A stretch of 64,000 bases of DNA from Streptomyces antimycoticus (GTDB lineage Bacteria; Actinomycetota; Actinomycetes; Streptomycetales; Streptomycetaceae), in contig NZ_BJHV01000001.1 of assembly GCF_005405925.1 (NCBI RefSeq), positions 4,960,001 through 5,024,000 of the forward strand, read 5' to 3'. The notes below the pieces were generated by a model. That model was not told the DNA's origin. It ran no database searches and was given only the letters and a program-made list of their open reading frames with translations. Shown here in pieces: positions 56,458 to 60,804 of the stretch. Position numbers and translations under genes: made by a program. The stretch's first letter is position 1, and each line of letters starts with the position of its first letter.

Positions 56458-57642
56458 TCAGCGCAGCGCGGCCTCGATCAGATCGGCGGCCCGTCCGGTT
56501 CCGCCCTCGGCCCGCACCTCGTCCCGCAGCCGCGCCGAGACGCGCGCGACCTCCGGATCCGCGGTGAGCTCGGTCAGAGCGGCACGCAGCACCTCGGCGG
56601 TGGCATCCGCCGTGTCGATACGGCGGGCCACGCCCAGCTCCACCAGCCGGTCGGCGTTCATGGCCTGTTCGGCCCCCTGCGGCACGGCGATCATCGGACA
56701 GCCGGTGTACAGCCCCTCGTTGCTGCCGCCCATCCCCGCATGGGTGATGAACGCGTCGGCCCGCTCCAGAATCGCGAGCTGGGGCACCCAGTCGCGCACC
56801 TCGACATTGCCCGGGACCTCCCCCAGCTCACCGGGGTCGACGTACTTGCCGATCTGCAGCACGACATGCCACCCGGGCAGATCCCCGAAGGCCGCGACGC
56901 ACTCGCGGTAGAAGGCGGCCTGCCGGGTGTACGCCGAGCCCAGGGAGATCAGCAGCACCTTCTCCGCGTCGGCGGGGCGCTGCCACCCGCCCTGGTCGGC
57001 ACGGTCCCCGAGGCAGGGCCCGACGAACGTCACGACCTCGGTGTTCACCCGGTCCGCGTTCGGCTGCATCGCGCACGGGATGAGCGCGACACAGCTCGGC
57101 GGCATCCCGGAGAAGGCGTTCGGCTCCGTGGTGGTGGCGCCGGACTCCACGAGCCAGGTCGCGAACTTCTCCTGATATGCGTCCGCGCCGGGAAGGCTCA
57201 TGATCTGCGCCCCGATCTCGTCGTGGTAGCCCTCCCAGCCCACGATCGTCGGTGACAGCTGGACCAGCGGGCGCCCCTGCGCCTCGGCGAGCGCACGGGC
57301 GGCGTACGCGCCGATGTCGTACAGATACACATCGGCCGGGTCGCGGTCGTACACGGCGCGCAGTTGGGGCAGGACGCGGATGGCGTCGTCCAGGAACAGC
57401 GTCATCGCGGCGATCGGGTCCTCCGGCCAGTCGTTGTCGGCGACCGGGAGGGTGGACTCGAACGGCACGAACTCGGCGCCGGTCGGCTTGATGACGTCCG
57501 CCATGAAGGGGTCGTTGGCGTACGTCACCCGGTGCCCGCGAGCCACGAGCTCGCGGATGACCTCGAGGCTGGGGAGGGTGTGGCTGATGGCGGGGATGCC
57601 GACCATGGCGATATGGGCACGGCGACGGGACGGACGTGACAT
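56458..57642 (-). CDS. Macrolide-type glycosyltransferase (MGT family)
   Basis: The 394-aa GT-B, family 1 enzyme resembles macrolide-inactivating glycosyltransferases (OleD/Mgt). The catalytic His lies in MVGIPAISHTLPSLEVI (His21) and the donor signature is ITHAGMGGSNEGLYTGCPMI with VPQGAEQAMNADRLVELGVA. It adds a sugar from UDP-glucose or similar to a hydrophobic acceptor, a self-resistance function in antibiotic producers; the substrate here is unproven. Upstream is a short leader peptide and a nested inverted repeat placing the start codon under likely translational control. Confidence 0.9.
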   Translation of the reverse strand: MSRPSRRRAHIAMVGIPAISHTLPSLEVIRELVARGHRVTYANDPFMADVIKPTGAEFVPFESTLPVADNDWPEDPIAAMTLFLDDAIRVLPQLRAVYDRDPADVYLYDIGAYAARALAEAQGRPLVQLSPTIVGWEGYHDEIGAQIMSLPGADAYQEKFATWLVESGATTTEPNAFSGMPPSCVALIPCAMQPNADRVNTEVVTFVGPCLGDRADQGGWQRPADAEKVLLISLGSAYTRQAAFYRECVAAFGDLPGWHVVLQIGKYVDPGELGEVPGNVEVRDWVPQLAILERADAFITHAGMGGSNEGLYTGCPMIAVPQGAEQAMNADRLVELGVARRIDTADATAEVLRAALTELTADPEVARVSARLRDEVRAEGGTGRAADLIEAALR

Positions 57643-57762
57643 GAGAGATCACTCGTTTCAGGTCTACGGCGAGATGGACACGACGACCCGGCGCACGGGC
57701 GTGGTCACCGGTGCGCCGGAGAGAGCGGCGTGTCAGCCGTAGATCTGAAGAAACGAGTCCAT
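57643..57762 (-). promoter_or_regulatory. Leader-peptide translational attenuator of the glycosyltransferase
   Basis: Two arms pair: 57736-57758 (the leader codons) and 57651-57670, whose reverse complement GCCGTAGACCTGAAACGAGT matches the first but for one base and a 3-nt insertion. Inside them a second hairpin pairs CCGGCGCAC (57688-57696) with GTGCGCCGG (57711-57719). The downstream arm ends 8 nt before the start codon, so the pairing would hide the ribosome site. A ribosome stalled on the leader would free it. Confidence 0.7.
57733..57762 (-). CDS. Nine-residue leader peptide MDSFLQIYG
   Basis: ATG 57762 opens a 9-codon frame ending TGA at 57733, entirely inside the outer arm of the attenuator. 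Length, position and the coding/pairing overlap are like the leader peptides of inducible erm and similar macrolide-resistance genes, where a drug-bound ribosome stalls. No strong ribosome site precedes it; TACCGT 7 nt upstream could be a -10 box for a leaderless mRNA. No homology to a known leader is claimed. Confidence 0.6.
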   Translation of the reverse strand: MDSFLQIYG

Positions 57763-58335
57763 GCGGATGACGGTACCCCGGCCGCTACCCGGCCCGCCTC
57801 TCCTTTTTCCGGCCTCAGCAAGCGCTAAGTGCCCGCTCAGTGCCGGGGCCTAGCGTCACGTACGCGACGGGCCGTCCGTTCTCCCTCCCTCTCCCGACGG
57901 ACCGTCGCACCTTACGTTTCGTGTCCGTGGCCGGAACCGGACGGGGCCCCCGGGACCACCGGCGGGTGGCCGCAGGACGGCGGGAGGAGGCGGGGTCGCA
58001 GGGGTGGTGTCCTGGACGCTTTCGCATATGTGCGGCGCCAACCCCCGGCCCACACCGCGCCCCCGGGCACCGGCCCCGTAAATAGGCGGTCCAGGGCGCC
58101 GCCCCGGAGGCCCCGCCCCCGGCACCCACCACGAACAGCAGGCGCACCACCCACGCACCCGCACCCGCACCCGCACCCGCACCGGCACCGGCACCCGCAA
58201 GCCGGACCGGCATCGCGCCGTGCCCCGCCCGCCCCCGGAACCCACGCCGAACCCCCACCATCCCCGGGCCGACCCCGCCTACCCTGGTGGCTTCTTCGAT
58301 ACGGCCGGCAACAGTCACCGGGGGGACGGGGCCTC
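57763..58335. other. Intergenic before the NACHT gene, hexamer repeat
   Basis: No gene is supported. From about 58141 to 58200 a CACCCG/CACCGG hexamer repeats roughly nine times. The open frames seen on both strands here come from this repeat and the high GC. Confidence 0.5.
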
Positions 58336-60804
58336 ATGGATCCCGCAGCGATACACACACTGGTCCAGGAACTCTTCGTCGCCGAGGGGCCGGTGGACCG
58401 GCCCGTGCGCATCGCCTCGCTGGTCGCCTTCCAGGGCGACCGCCGCACGCTCACCGAACGGGACCTGCCCCGGATCGCCGCCGCGCTCCTTGCCGCGCTC
58501 CTTAAGGAGGCCACCGAAGGGGGCGTCGCTCAGAAACGAGAGCCGGCGCACCCCGAGCTCACCGACGCACTCGCCCGCACCCTCCACGCCCTCGGCACCG
58601 TCGACCTGGACGACCTGCGGGCCGTCCGCCTCGGCCCCGAAGCCTTCGCCCGCCACCTCGCCATCGCCGCGCCCGACGCCGACGAGGGGCTGGACGCGGA
58701 CGACGCCCGGGCGTACGCCTCGCTGCGGGAGGCCGTCTGCGGGCACATCCTGCGCTTCCTCGTCCGCCGCTCCCCCTTCGTCACGGCCGCCGAGGACGCC
58801 GCGTTCGAGGAGCGCTACGCCCGGGACATCGTGGCCGCCCACGACCATCTGACGATCTACGGCATCGATCTGGCCCACTCCCCCGACAGCTGGCCGCTGG
58901 ACGCCGCCTATCTCAGCCTGGAGACCGAGACCGACGCGGGAGGCCCGAGCGCCCCCGCCGAACAGGCCCTCGCCGGACGCGAAAGGGTGCTGCTGTGGGG
59001 CGTGGCAGGGTCGGGCAAGACCACGCTGGTGCAGCGGCTCGCGGTGTCCGTGGCACGCGGTGACCTCCCGGTCCCGCTGGCGGGGCTGCGCGGGCGGGTC
59101 CCCTTCGTGCTCCCCGTGCGCCGGTTCCGCCGCGACGGCTTCCCGGAGCCGGACGCCTTCCTGTCCGCCGTCCGCTATCCGCACACCGCCGCCCAGCCGC
59201 CGGGATGGGCCGAGCGGGTGCTGTCCCACGGGCGCGGGCTGCTGCTCGTGGACGGGGTGGACGAGGCCCCGGAGGGGGAGCGTGAGCGGCTGCGGGAGGC
59301 GCTGCGCGAGCTTCCGGCGCGCTATCCGGGAAATATCTGGCTGGTCACCTCGCGCCCCTCGGCCGTACGGGAGAACTGGCTGGCCTCGGAGCGCTTCACC
59401 GAGCTGAAACTCTCCCCGCTCAGCCGCGAGGGGGTCACCGCGTTCATCCGGCGCTGGCATGCGGCCGCCCGCCAGGACATCACCGACGGTGCCGATCTGG
59501 ACCGGCTGAGTGGTTACGAGGAAACGCTGCTGGACGCCGTGAGGATTACCCGGGACCTCGGCCGGCTGGCCACCAATCCACTGATGTGCGGTCTGCTGTG
59601 CGCGCTGCACCGGGACCGCCGCGGCTATCTGCCGCGCGGCCGGAAAGCCCTCTATGACGCGGCCCTTTCCATGTTGCTGGAACGGCGCGACCGCGAGCGC
59701 GCCATGCTGCCGCCGGAGGGAATCGACCTCCCCCAGGAACCGAAGATCCAGCTGCTGCAGAAGCTGGCGCACTGGATGCTCGTCAACGGCCGGTCCGAAA
59801 TGGACCGGACCACCGCCGTCGAGACGCTCGGCCGGCACCTCCCGGCCATTCCGCACGCGGCGCGGCAGGGCGGGCCGGAGGAGATCTACCGACATCTGCT
59901 CAATCGGACCGGTCTATTGCGCGAGCCCACACCCGGTTCGGTCGATTTCGTGCACCGAACGTTCCAGGACTATCTCAGCGCGAGAGCGGTCGTCGAACGA
60001 CACGATTTCGACTTCCTGATCGACCACGCACACCTGGACGACTGGGAAGAAGTGATCAGAATGTCGGTCGCTCTCGCCCGCCCCGATGAATGCGGCTACC
60101 TCCTGGAGGGGCTGCTGGCGGCCCGTAAAGACGCCCGGCCGGTCCATGCCCGCCATCGCAAACTCCTGGCGGCCGCATGTCTGGAACACGCGACGGAGCT
60201 GGACCCCGAGGTGCGTTCCCGGGTGCATCGCTATACCCGCGATCTGGTACGCCCGACCTCGCTGGAAGCGGCCCGCGCGCTGGGCTGGATCGGGCCTATC
60301 GTGCTGGAAATGCTGCCCGATCCCAGCGGCGTATCCGATGAGGAGGCCCACCGGCTGGCCGTCACCGCCACCTCGATAGCCGACGACCGCGCCATCGACT
60401 ATCTCGTCCGGCTGCGGGACCGCGCCTCCTGGGCGGTACGGGCGCAGCTCGCGGGCGCCTGGCGGCGATATGACACCGATCGTTACGCCGAGGAAATCAT
60501 CGGCCATCTCGATGAGCGGGAACTCGACTTTCCGGTGTCGGACCTGGAGGAGCTGCGGGCGCTGCGCCGGCTCGGCGGCCGCCCCTGCGTCCAGATAGCC
60601 GGTGCGCTCACCCCGGACCAGCTTGCCGAGGGCCTGGTGGCGGAGCGGCTGACCGAGCTGTGGCTCGCCTACGACCTGGGCGCGGACCTGGACCTGAGCT
60701 GGCTGGCCGCCTTCCCCCGGCTGCACACCCTGCGGCTGAGCCACCGCAATACGGGGGTGACCGGGGTCCCGGAGGGCGTCCAGGTCATCGTGGCGGGCGC
60801 GTAA
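58336..60804 (+). CDS. NACHT-domain NTPase (STAND family)
   Basis: The 822-aa protein has a helical N-terminal domain (residues 1-200) and a NACHT ATPase: Walker A LLWGVAGSGKTTLVQRL near 220, Walker B GLLLVDGVDEAPEG near 300, and the sensor-type LVTSRPSA. A winged-helix-like and helical C-terminal region follows (FVHRTFQDYLSARAVV) with short repeat-like beta/alpha units at the end (LHTLRLSHRNTGVTGV). Bacterial NACHT proteins include anti-phage defence proteins. No toxic effector domain is obvious. ATG 58336 follows a G-rich site. Confidence 0.9.
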   Translation: MDPAAIHTLVQELFVAEGPVDRPVRIASLVAFQGDRRTLTERDLPRIAAALLAALLKEATEGGVAQKREPAHPELTDALARTLHALGTVDLDDLRAVRLGPEAFARHLAIAAPDADEGLDADDARAYASLREAVCGHILRFLVRRSPFVTAAEDAAFEERYARDIVAAHDHLTIYGIDLAHSPDSWPLDAAYLSLETETDAGGPSAPAEQALAGRERVLLWGVAGSGKTTLVQRLAVSVARGDLPVPLAGLRGRVPFVLPVRRFRRDGFPEPDAFLSAVRYPHTAAQPPGWAERVLSHGRGLLLVDGVDEAPEGERERLREALRELPARYPGNIWLVTSRPSAVRENWLASERFTELKLSPLSREGVTAFIRRWHAAARQDITDGADLDRLSGYEETLLDAVRITRDLGRLATNPLMCGLLCALHRDRRGYLPRGRKALYDAALSMLLERRDRERAMLPPEGIDLPQEPKIQLLQKLAHWMLVNGRSEMDRTTAVETLGRHLPAIPHAARQGGPEEIYRHLLNRTGLLREPTPGSVDFVHRTFQDYLSARAVVERHDFDFLIDHAHLDDWEEVIRMSVALARPDECGYLLEGLLAARKDARPVHARHRKLLAAACLEHATELDPEVRSRVHRYTRDLVRPTSLEAARALGWIGPIVLEMLPDPSGVSDEEAHRLAVTATSIADDRAIDYLVRLRDRASWAVRAQLAGAWRRYDTDRYAEEIIGHLDERELDFPVSDLEELRALRRLGGRPCVQIAGALTPDQLAEGLVAERLTELWLAYDLGADLDLSWLAAFPRLHTLRLSHRNTGVTGVPEGVQVIVAGA

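Follow-up and report, generated by a model that had tools for sequence, protein, structure and literature searches.

In Streptomyces antimycoticus and its relatives, the region upstream of a macrolide-family glycosyltransferase gene is probably a ribosome-mediated translational attenuator, a one-step hairpin that would be opened by a ribosome stalled on a short leader. The stretch of DNA that was analysed, hereafter the window, comprises 64,000 nucleotides; comparison of its sequence with those of its relatives documents the leader, its reading frame, its pairing with a downstream arm, its conservation and its link to the glycosyltransferase gene. In the mechanism that we infer, as regards mRNA start, stalling, drug and direction of switching alike, the mRNA would begin at the leader ATG or within a base of it, as set by the promoter; without drug, the nine-codon leader would be quickly translated and the ribosomes would depart, and the vacated codons, chiefly CAG-ATC-TAC-GGC, would pair with an arm in direct contact with the glycosyltransferase gene's ribosome-binding stretch and so hold down translation of that gene. 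If a drug, most likely a macrolide antibiotic, detained a ribosome on the leader, that ribosome would cover these codons, the arm would be released and the macrolide-inactivating enzyme would be produced. Macrolides are suggested as the inducer because of the enzyme family. Inducible macrolide resistance is said to have been described in S. lividans by Jenkins and Cundliffe in 1991.

The locus, the fold and the promoter

The minus strand, which the preliminary description did not specify, holds every element, including the leader, both arms, the inner hairpin and the glycosyltransferase; in reading direction, the features are as follows.

57803..57810, minus strand: A-rich box GGAAAAAG, a weak WblC box match (score 7 of 10)
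57770..57775, minus strand: -10 hexamer TACCGT, 7 nt before the leader ATG (sequence)
57733..57762, minus strand: leader ORF MDSFLQIYG plus TGA, nine codons, which form the upstream arm (sequence; conserved in relatives)
57750..57758, minus strand: extension of the upstream arm, inside the DSF codons (repeat search)
57736..57749, minus strand: main part of the upstream arm, the QIYG codons and the two preceding bases (repeat search)
57726..57734, minus strand: 5' side of a second helix, beginning at the leader stop (repeat search; fold)
57688..57719, minus strand: inner G+C-rich hairpin, arms 57688-57699 / 57708-57719 (repeat search; fold)
57677..57685, minus strand: 3' side of the second helix (repeat search; fold)
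57659..57670, minus strand: downstream arm GCCGTAGACCTG, complementary to the QIYG codons at 11 of 12 positions (repeat search and arm registration)
57647..57659, minus strand: GAAACGAGTGATC, an extended Shine-Dalgarno-like stretch adjoining the arm, near-complement of GATCACCTCCTTTC (sequence)
56458..57642, minus strand: macrolide-family glycosyltransferase, 394 aa (TIGR01426 and nearest solved structures)

The preliminary description of this locus had placed a nine-codon leader within one arm of an inverted repeat, ended the other arm 8 nt before a glycosyltransferase start and set an inner hairpin between the two; each of these was located, the leader at 57762-57733 (-), the arm end at 57651 with a gap of 8 nt to the ATG (57642-57640, minus strand), and the hairpin as listed. 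The glycosyltransferase itself was likewise confirmed and assigned to the macrolide family by TIGR01426 (macrolide family glycosyltransferase), scoring 382 bits against a curated cut-off of 260; oleandomycin glycosyltransferases are its best solved relatives (E 1.7e-133). In the NCBIfam model NF033129 for macrolide-inactivating Mgt the window enzyme reached 513 bits, below the curated cut-off of 700; scores elsewhere were 781 and 651 bits for two common Mgt copies (L011 and L010) and 529 bits for the leader-bearing homologue L003. The enzyme probably disables macrolide antibiotics, its presumed substrates. A divergent ORF on the plus strand (58337-60804) contains the P-loop GVAGSGKTT and by eye has the look of a NACHT-type ATPase.

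The main arm (57736-57749, 14 nt) is 93% complementary to 57657-57670 and its extension (57750-57758, 9 nt) 100% complementary to 57651-57659; the leader codons pair with 57670-57651. This long extension is typical of MDS-type leaders and is lacking in most others. The fold of the minus strand from 57762 to 57600 was calculated at -70.5 kcal/mol (z -4.65; equalled by 0 of 200 dinucleotide shuffles). The arrangement of leader and repeat is more than chance, since leader and pairing recur in relatives. The sequence GGCTGGATCACCTCCTTTCT, which we take to be the 16S 3' end, has six copies in the organism's own genome. A search of Rfam with positions 57500-58000 gave no match at gathering score; the two sub-threshold hits, of 18.8 bits (gathering 40) and 13.9 bits (gathering 70), were both on the plus strand.

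The distance from the end of the -10 hexamer to the leader start codon is 7 nt in 40 and 6 nt in 20 of the 60 same-genus leaders, found in a search that had required a hexamer at 4-11 nt; it is also 6-7 nt in 71 of 72 actinobacterial matches, for which the hexamer was not a search requirement. Most starts of WblC-activated promoters in S. coelicolor lie 7-8 bp past the -10 element (PMC7157823); since the hexamer-ATG spacing fits this distance, transcription probably starts with the leader ATG, and the mRNA is, to judge from this spacing, probably leaderless. A WblC/WhiB7 box model (GAAAWY 3 nt before a TKGMNN -35, then 16-19 nt and TANNNT; maximum 10) scored at least 8 in 65 of 111 distinct promoters, compared to 0.34% of mononucleotide shuffles; the window scored 7.

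Conservation of the leader and its gene

Homologues at E ≤1e-140 were found in 89 of 392 genomes of the same genus, and 77 homologues of at least 66% identity (L001-L007, L031-L100) served as the sample of upstream regions. The preliminary description had proposed looking for a conserved leader and pairing upstream of related genes, and both were found: 60 homologues carry the leader, 16 are without it and one is masked, and 49 of the 60 leaders have the arm (at least 9 of 12 pairs), compared to 0 of the 16 homologues without leader (Fisher p 1.2e-9) and 1 of 20 common Mgt copies. One leader search accepted only peptides ending in YG or EIY with a TAnnnT hexamer whose last base lay 4-11 nt ahead of the start codon; a second was open to other endings and did not need the hexamer, and a scan of the leaderless rows on looser terms brought up no other leader version. 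The arm is weak in the remaining 11 leader-bearing homologues; the count of 49 may be too low, since L098 was scored as weak yet reaches 11 of 12 pairs under a different start placement.

The 60 leaders start with ATG (59) or GTG (1) and all stop with TGA; two have 7 residues, 31 have 8, 26 have 9 and one has 10. They end in QIYG (43), QLYG (13) and, once each, PIYG, QFYG, EIYG and REIY; the Q(I/L)YG end is thus present in 56 of 60, and the residues before it vary. At position N-2 the residues are I (45), L (13), F (1) and E (1), i.e., Ile or Leu in 58 of 60. The variant leader MAYREIY of L049 has an altered end and lacks a good arm. The Tyr codon remains TAC in 13 of 58 rows despite an arm partner C instead of T, a hint of selection on the peptide itself; as a caveat on Tyr conservation, the leader searches had largely fixed this residue. 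Sensing of a glutamine or tyrosine shortage was set aside, given one Tyr codon, mostly one Gln codon, and a drug-modifying enzyme downstream.

A DNA pattern with a free gap of 9-18 nt matched once each in 55 of the 392 genomes, and its reversed control matched in none; all 55 matches lie 85-234 nt upstream of a glycosyltransferase homologue on the same strand, and in all 55 the gap length is divisible by three. A pattern for 8-residue leaders, applied to 84,980 species genomes that overlap in part with the 392, gave 75 matches, 72 of them in Actinobacteria; the other three are metagenome-assembled non-actinobacteria without hexamer and without such a glycosyltransferase gene. The enzyme check was limited to 68 actinobacterial matches, the other four having at most 169 bases downstream; the enzyme is clear in 67, its aligned portion being roughly 61-81% identical (some sequences end early), and a weak fragment in one (L199). 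Leader and gene were seen in Parafrankia, Frankia, Micromonospora, Nocardia, Sphaerimonospora and Sphaerisporangium, among others. Two loci with a leader are perhaps decaying copies: L199, where the enzyme matched as a fragment only, and L175, where the enzyme N-terminus is unmatched and the -10 element altered. On an enzyme tree of 109 proteins, 81 of them labelled as leader-bearing and the masked L006 counted among those without, the leader label requires 4 changes, compared to 25.1 for shuffled labels.

The 16 homologues without both leader and arm, 15 of which by eye stand behind another resistance-type gene, provide a natural comparison; a loose ribosome-binding-stretch pattern fits all 16. 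Twelve appear, by eye, right behind a Vat-like streptogramin acetyltransferase (L002, L044, L053, L054, L056, L058, L063, L064, L066, L077, L082 and L094) and three right behind an apparent ABC-F gene (L087, L092 and L100). Five of the Vat-like neighbours were translated and one was scored, at 245 bits in NF000311, below the cut-off of 300. No uORF for leaderless translation with a -10 hexamer was found in the 1.5 kb before five Vat-linked copies that have no leader.

Outside this sample, no leader was found before 14 more distant loci (L101-L114), and inspection of the 320 nt upstream of L008 and of the common Mgt copies (L009-L028) showed none either. In place of the leader, a palindrome of the GAGACGTCTCGTCTC kind, likely a repressor site, immediately precedes the start in many of these common Mgt copies. 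A sister group picked by eye (L101-L107, L109, L114 and L008, i.e., 10 of the 15 loci L008 plus L101-L114) shows, in 8 of its 10 rows, an arm-like sequence that reaches at least 9 of 12 pairs; a conserved block around CGGCGTTTnCCTGCCGTAGACCTCTATCCAAGGAAG precedes the start in this group. No sister-group leader was found within 500 nt; within 3 kb and allowing at most two mismatches to the arm's complement, 3 of 9 rows gave one match each, the nearest 713 nt upstream. In the sister group, the arm may predate the leader and serve some other function.

Pairing between leader and ribosome-binding region

The pairing set was drawn from 60 plus 72 leader rows; ten rows lacking a readable enzyme start motif or sequence were excluded, as were L040 for the same reason, 19 duplicates and L049 with its odd end, leaving 101 rows. 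In 87 of the 101 rows, the 12-nt stretch that best complements the last four leader codons forms at least 9 Watson-Crick pairs with them; its commonest distance from the glycosyltransferase start is 16 nt. The interval between this arm and the start contains AAACGAGTGATC or a variant of it, nearly complementary to what we take to be the 16S 3' end. The direct pairing of leader codons with the region before the start, as originally proposed, is thus seen in the window and in its relatives.

Judged from these sequences, codon choice in the leaders bears a signal of pairing: of 72 distinct leaders, 32 have T as the last base of the codon preceding CAG, compared to 4.1% of 1859 codons in three window genes, and CTC is used by all 11 distinct QLYG leaders in the set that was not chosen by DNA pattern. 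The association of T before CAG with A after the arm is at most suggestive (Fisher p 0.097). Energy tests were based on the 81 of 101 rows that passed filters for arm quality, distance and length, reduced to 67 by removal of near-copies. The pairing energy of leaders with their own arms is -20.51 kcal/mol, against -19.53 kcal/mol when arms are swapped; 0 of 20,000 permutations were as good, a figure that, like the other permutation and binomial figures here, is uncorrected for kinship, which inflates the p values. The outcome is the same when MDS leaders are excluded (61 rows; 0 of 20,000) and weaker for QIYG leaders alone (53 rows; 204 of 20,000). When each leader was set against 50 synonymous recodings, the pairing of the natural codons surpassed the recoded mean in 55 of 67 rows, and 95% of the recodings in just 21 of 67.

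The registered pairing, swaps and recodings were used because the middle of the alignment is not alignable; RNAalifold with the 67 sequences returned three invariant local pairs and no covarying pair, and the leader-arm helix was absent from its consensus. The preliminary description had staked its reading on conservation or covariation of the two arms, and by this criterion it was not refuted; conservation is clear, and the signal of covariation is mixed, with positive swap and recoding tests set against the RNAalifold result. By the swap and recoding tests and the lack of an arm in the 16 leaderless homologues, the leader-arm pairing looks to be under selection.

Assignment to the translational attenuators is consistent with a short upstream ORF that is in frame and conserved, and with a leader that pairs with the ribosome-binding region, though only the adjoining arm changes its openness. 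The helix has a mean probability above 0.5 in 64 of 67 rows, which had been chosen for good arms. The median cost of opening the start region in the 67 rows is 12.0 kcal/mol for the free RNA, 7.9 with the leader covered and 8.5 with the leader shuffled; the corresponding values in the window are 18.6, 8.9 and 9.3 kcal/mol. Covering the leader cuts the opening cost by at least 2 kcal/mol in 53 of 67 of these good-arm rows, and the natural leader exceeds the shuffled leader by at least 2 kcal/mol in 49 of 67. On covering, the arm alone opens (unpaired fraction 0.10 to 0.49); the unpaired fraction from arm to start codon barely moves, with medians of 0.53 and 0.52. In 40 of 58 rows, the Ile/Leu codon has no pairing partner for its first base.

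The leader could, as a tentative reading that we hold possible, carry two codes: an ultra-short leaderless uORF would act both as a Q(I/L)YG-UGA arrest peptide, stalling macrolide-bound ribosomes at the termination step, and as antisense of the ribosome-binding region, and WblC and leader would together form a two-step antibiotic gate in Streptomyces, Frankia-type, Micromonospora, Nocardia and Sphaerisporangium-type genomes. If true, this would be a new class of drug-sensing leader; one short sequence looks to be under both peptide and antisense-RNA selection, and its conserved peptide end is available as an arrest candidate. The results point to a compact form of control, present in many soil actinomycetes, through which macrolide glycosylation would become inducible.

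Alternative readings and known systems

A stress sensor of the toiL kind, in which a ribosome held by any drug class or by a shortage opens the start and the peptide senses nothing, would suit the pairing that extends along the leader in the window; toiL answers at least five drug classes, which is ascribed to pairing of the whole uORF (PMC12121999), and WblC promoters respond to translation-targeting drugs (PMC7157823). Against this, the Q(I/L)YG end is conserved while the earlier residues vary, and TAC is kept opposite a mismatching arm, with the caveat that the searches largely fixed Tyr; on balance, a multi-drug sensor appears rather doubtful. The long G+C-rich hairpin between leader and gene could also be read as a terminator in msrD fashion, since transcription attenuation is known for msrD, lmrC and other ARE ABCF genes (PMC10314930, PMC12421871); yet no T run follows the hairpin or the arm in the window, and the arm adjoins the ribosome-binding stretch close to the start, which leaves a terminator very unlikely.

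Still less likely is a hairpin that constantly lowers translation and takes no part in drug sensing; it would account for the strong fold and dispense with the induction that we infer, but it would have no need of a translated, in-frame ORF with a conserved end. Least likely of all, leader and arm might be conserved as DNA, in a promoter or operator, with the pairing incidental. Such an origin could explain why the sister group keeps a GCCGTAGACCTC-like sequence without leader; the in-frame leader and its stop, the codon choice, the swap test and the joint absence of arm and leader argue against it. The translational attenuator thus remains the preferred reading.

Precedents for its single parts are found in several leader systems. 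In the translational attenuation of cat-86 and cmlA, one hairpin hides the ribosome-binding site until a leader-stalled ribosome breaks it; these respond to chloramphenicol, and their leader and enzyme are unlike those of the window. The erm leaders are longer and work through alternating hairpins, whereas single direct pairing and a different peptide are seen here. They are alike in that a macrolide-stalled leader (ErmCL, ErmBL) opens translation of a macrolide-resistance gene (PMC12121999), as stalling would do in the window. A parallel in design is toiL-topAI of E. coli, where the codons of the leader base-pair with the following gene's ribosome-binding site, which a stalled ribosome opens (PMC12121999); it differs in serving a toxin-antitoxin gene pair, in the Shine-Dalgarno sequence of toiL itself and in its many drug classes (PMC12121999), compared to a resistance-type enzyme and a probably leaderless leader here. 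The idea of a drug-sensing attenuator put forward in the preliminary description is in this respect refined: the conserved in-frame leader, the macrolide-family gene and the direct pairing stand in its favor, and the one-step switch that pairs leader codons with a ribosome-binding site is not new, being known from toiL/topAI (PMC12121999).

MsrDL (MYLIFM-UAA) is likewise a very short macrolide leader; a ribosome arrested on it, at the termination step, masks the first half of a hairpin, and N-3 and N-2 (Leu, Ile) are suggested as drug sensors (PMC10314930). Its Ile at N-2 matches the Ile or Leu of 58 of 60 leaders here if Leu is counted as alike, a resemblance and not a test; MsrDL differs in its UAA stop and its transcription terminator (PMC10314930), compared to TGA throughout and no terminator seen in the window. 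The uORFs of are5sc, tiaA and wblC in Streptomyces similarly precede drug-response genes with ribosome-mediated attenuation (PMC12421871, PMC7157823); are5sc and tiaA differ by their LSAP drugs, predicted terminators and peptides MLV and MVGDDDISG (PMC12421871, PMC7157823). Among the matches listed, judged by title and the start of the abstract in a search with subscription literature mostly outside its coverage, no paper described a leader before a macrolide glycosyltransferase. As far as the literature searched shows, the new element is the combination of this peptide, the gene downstream of it, the probably leaderless start and the WblC-like promoter.
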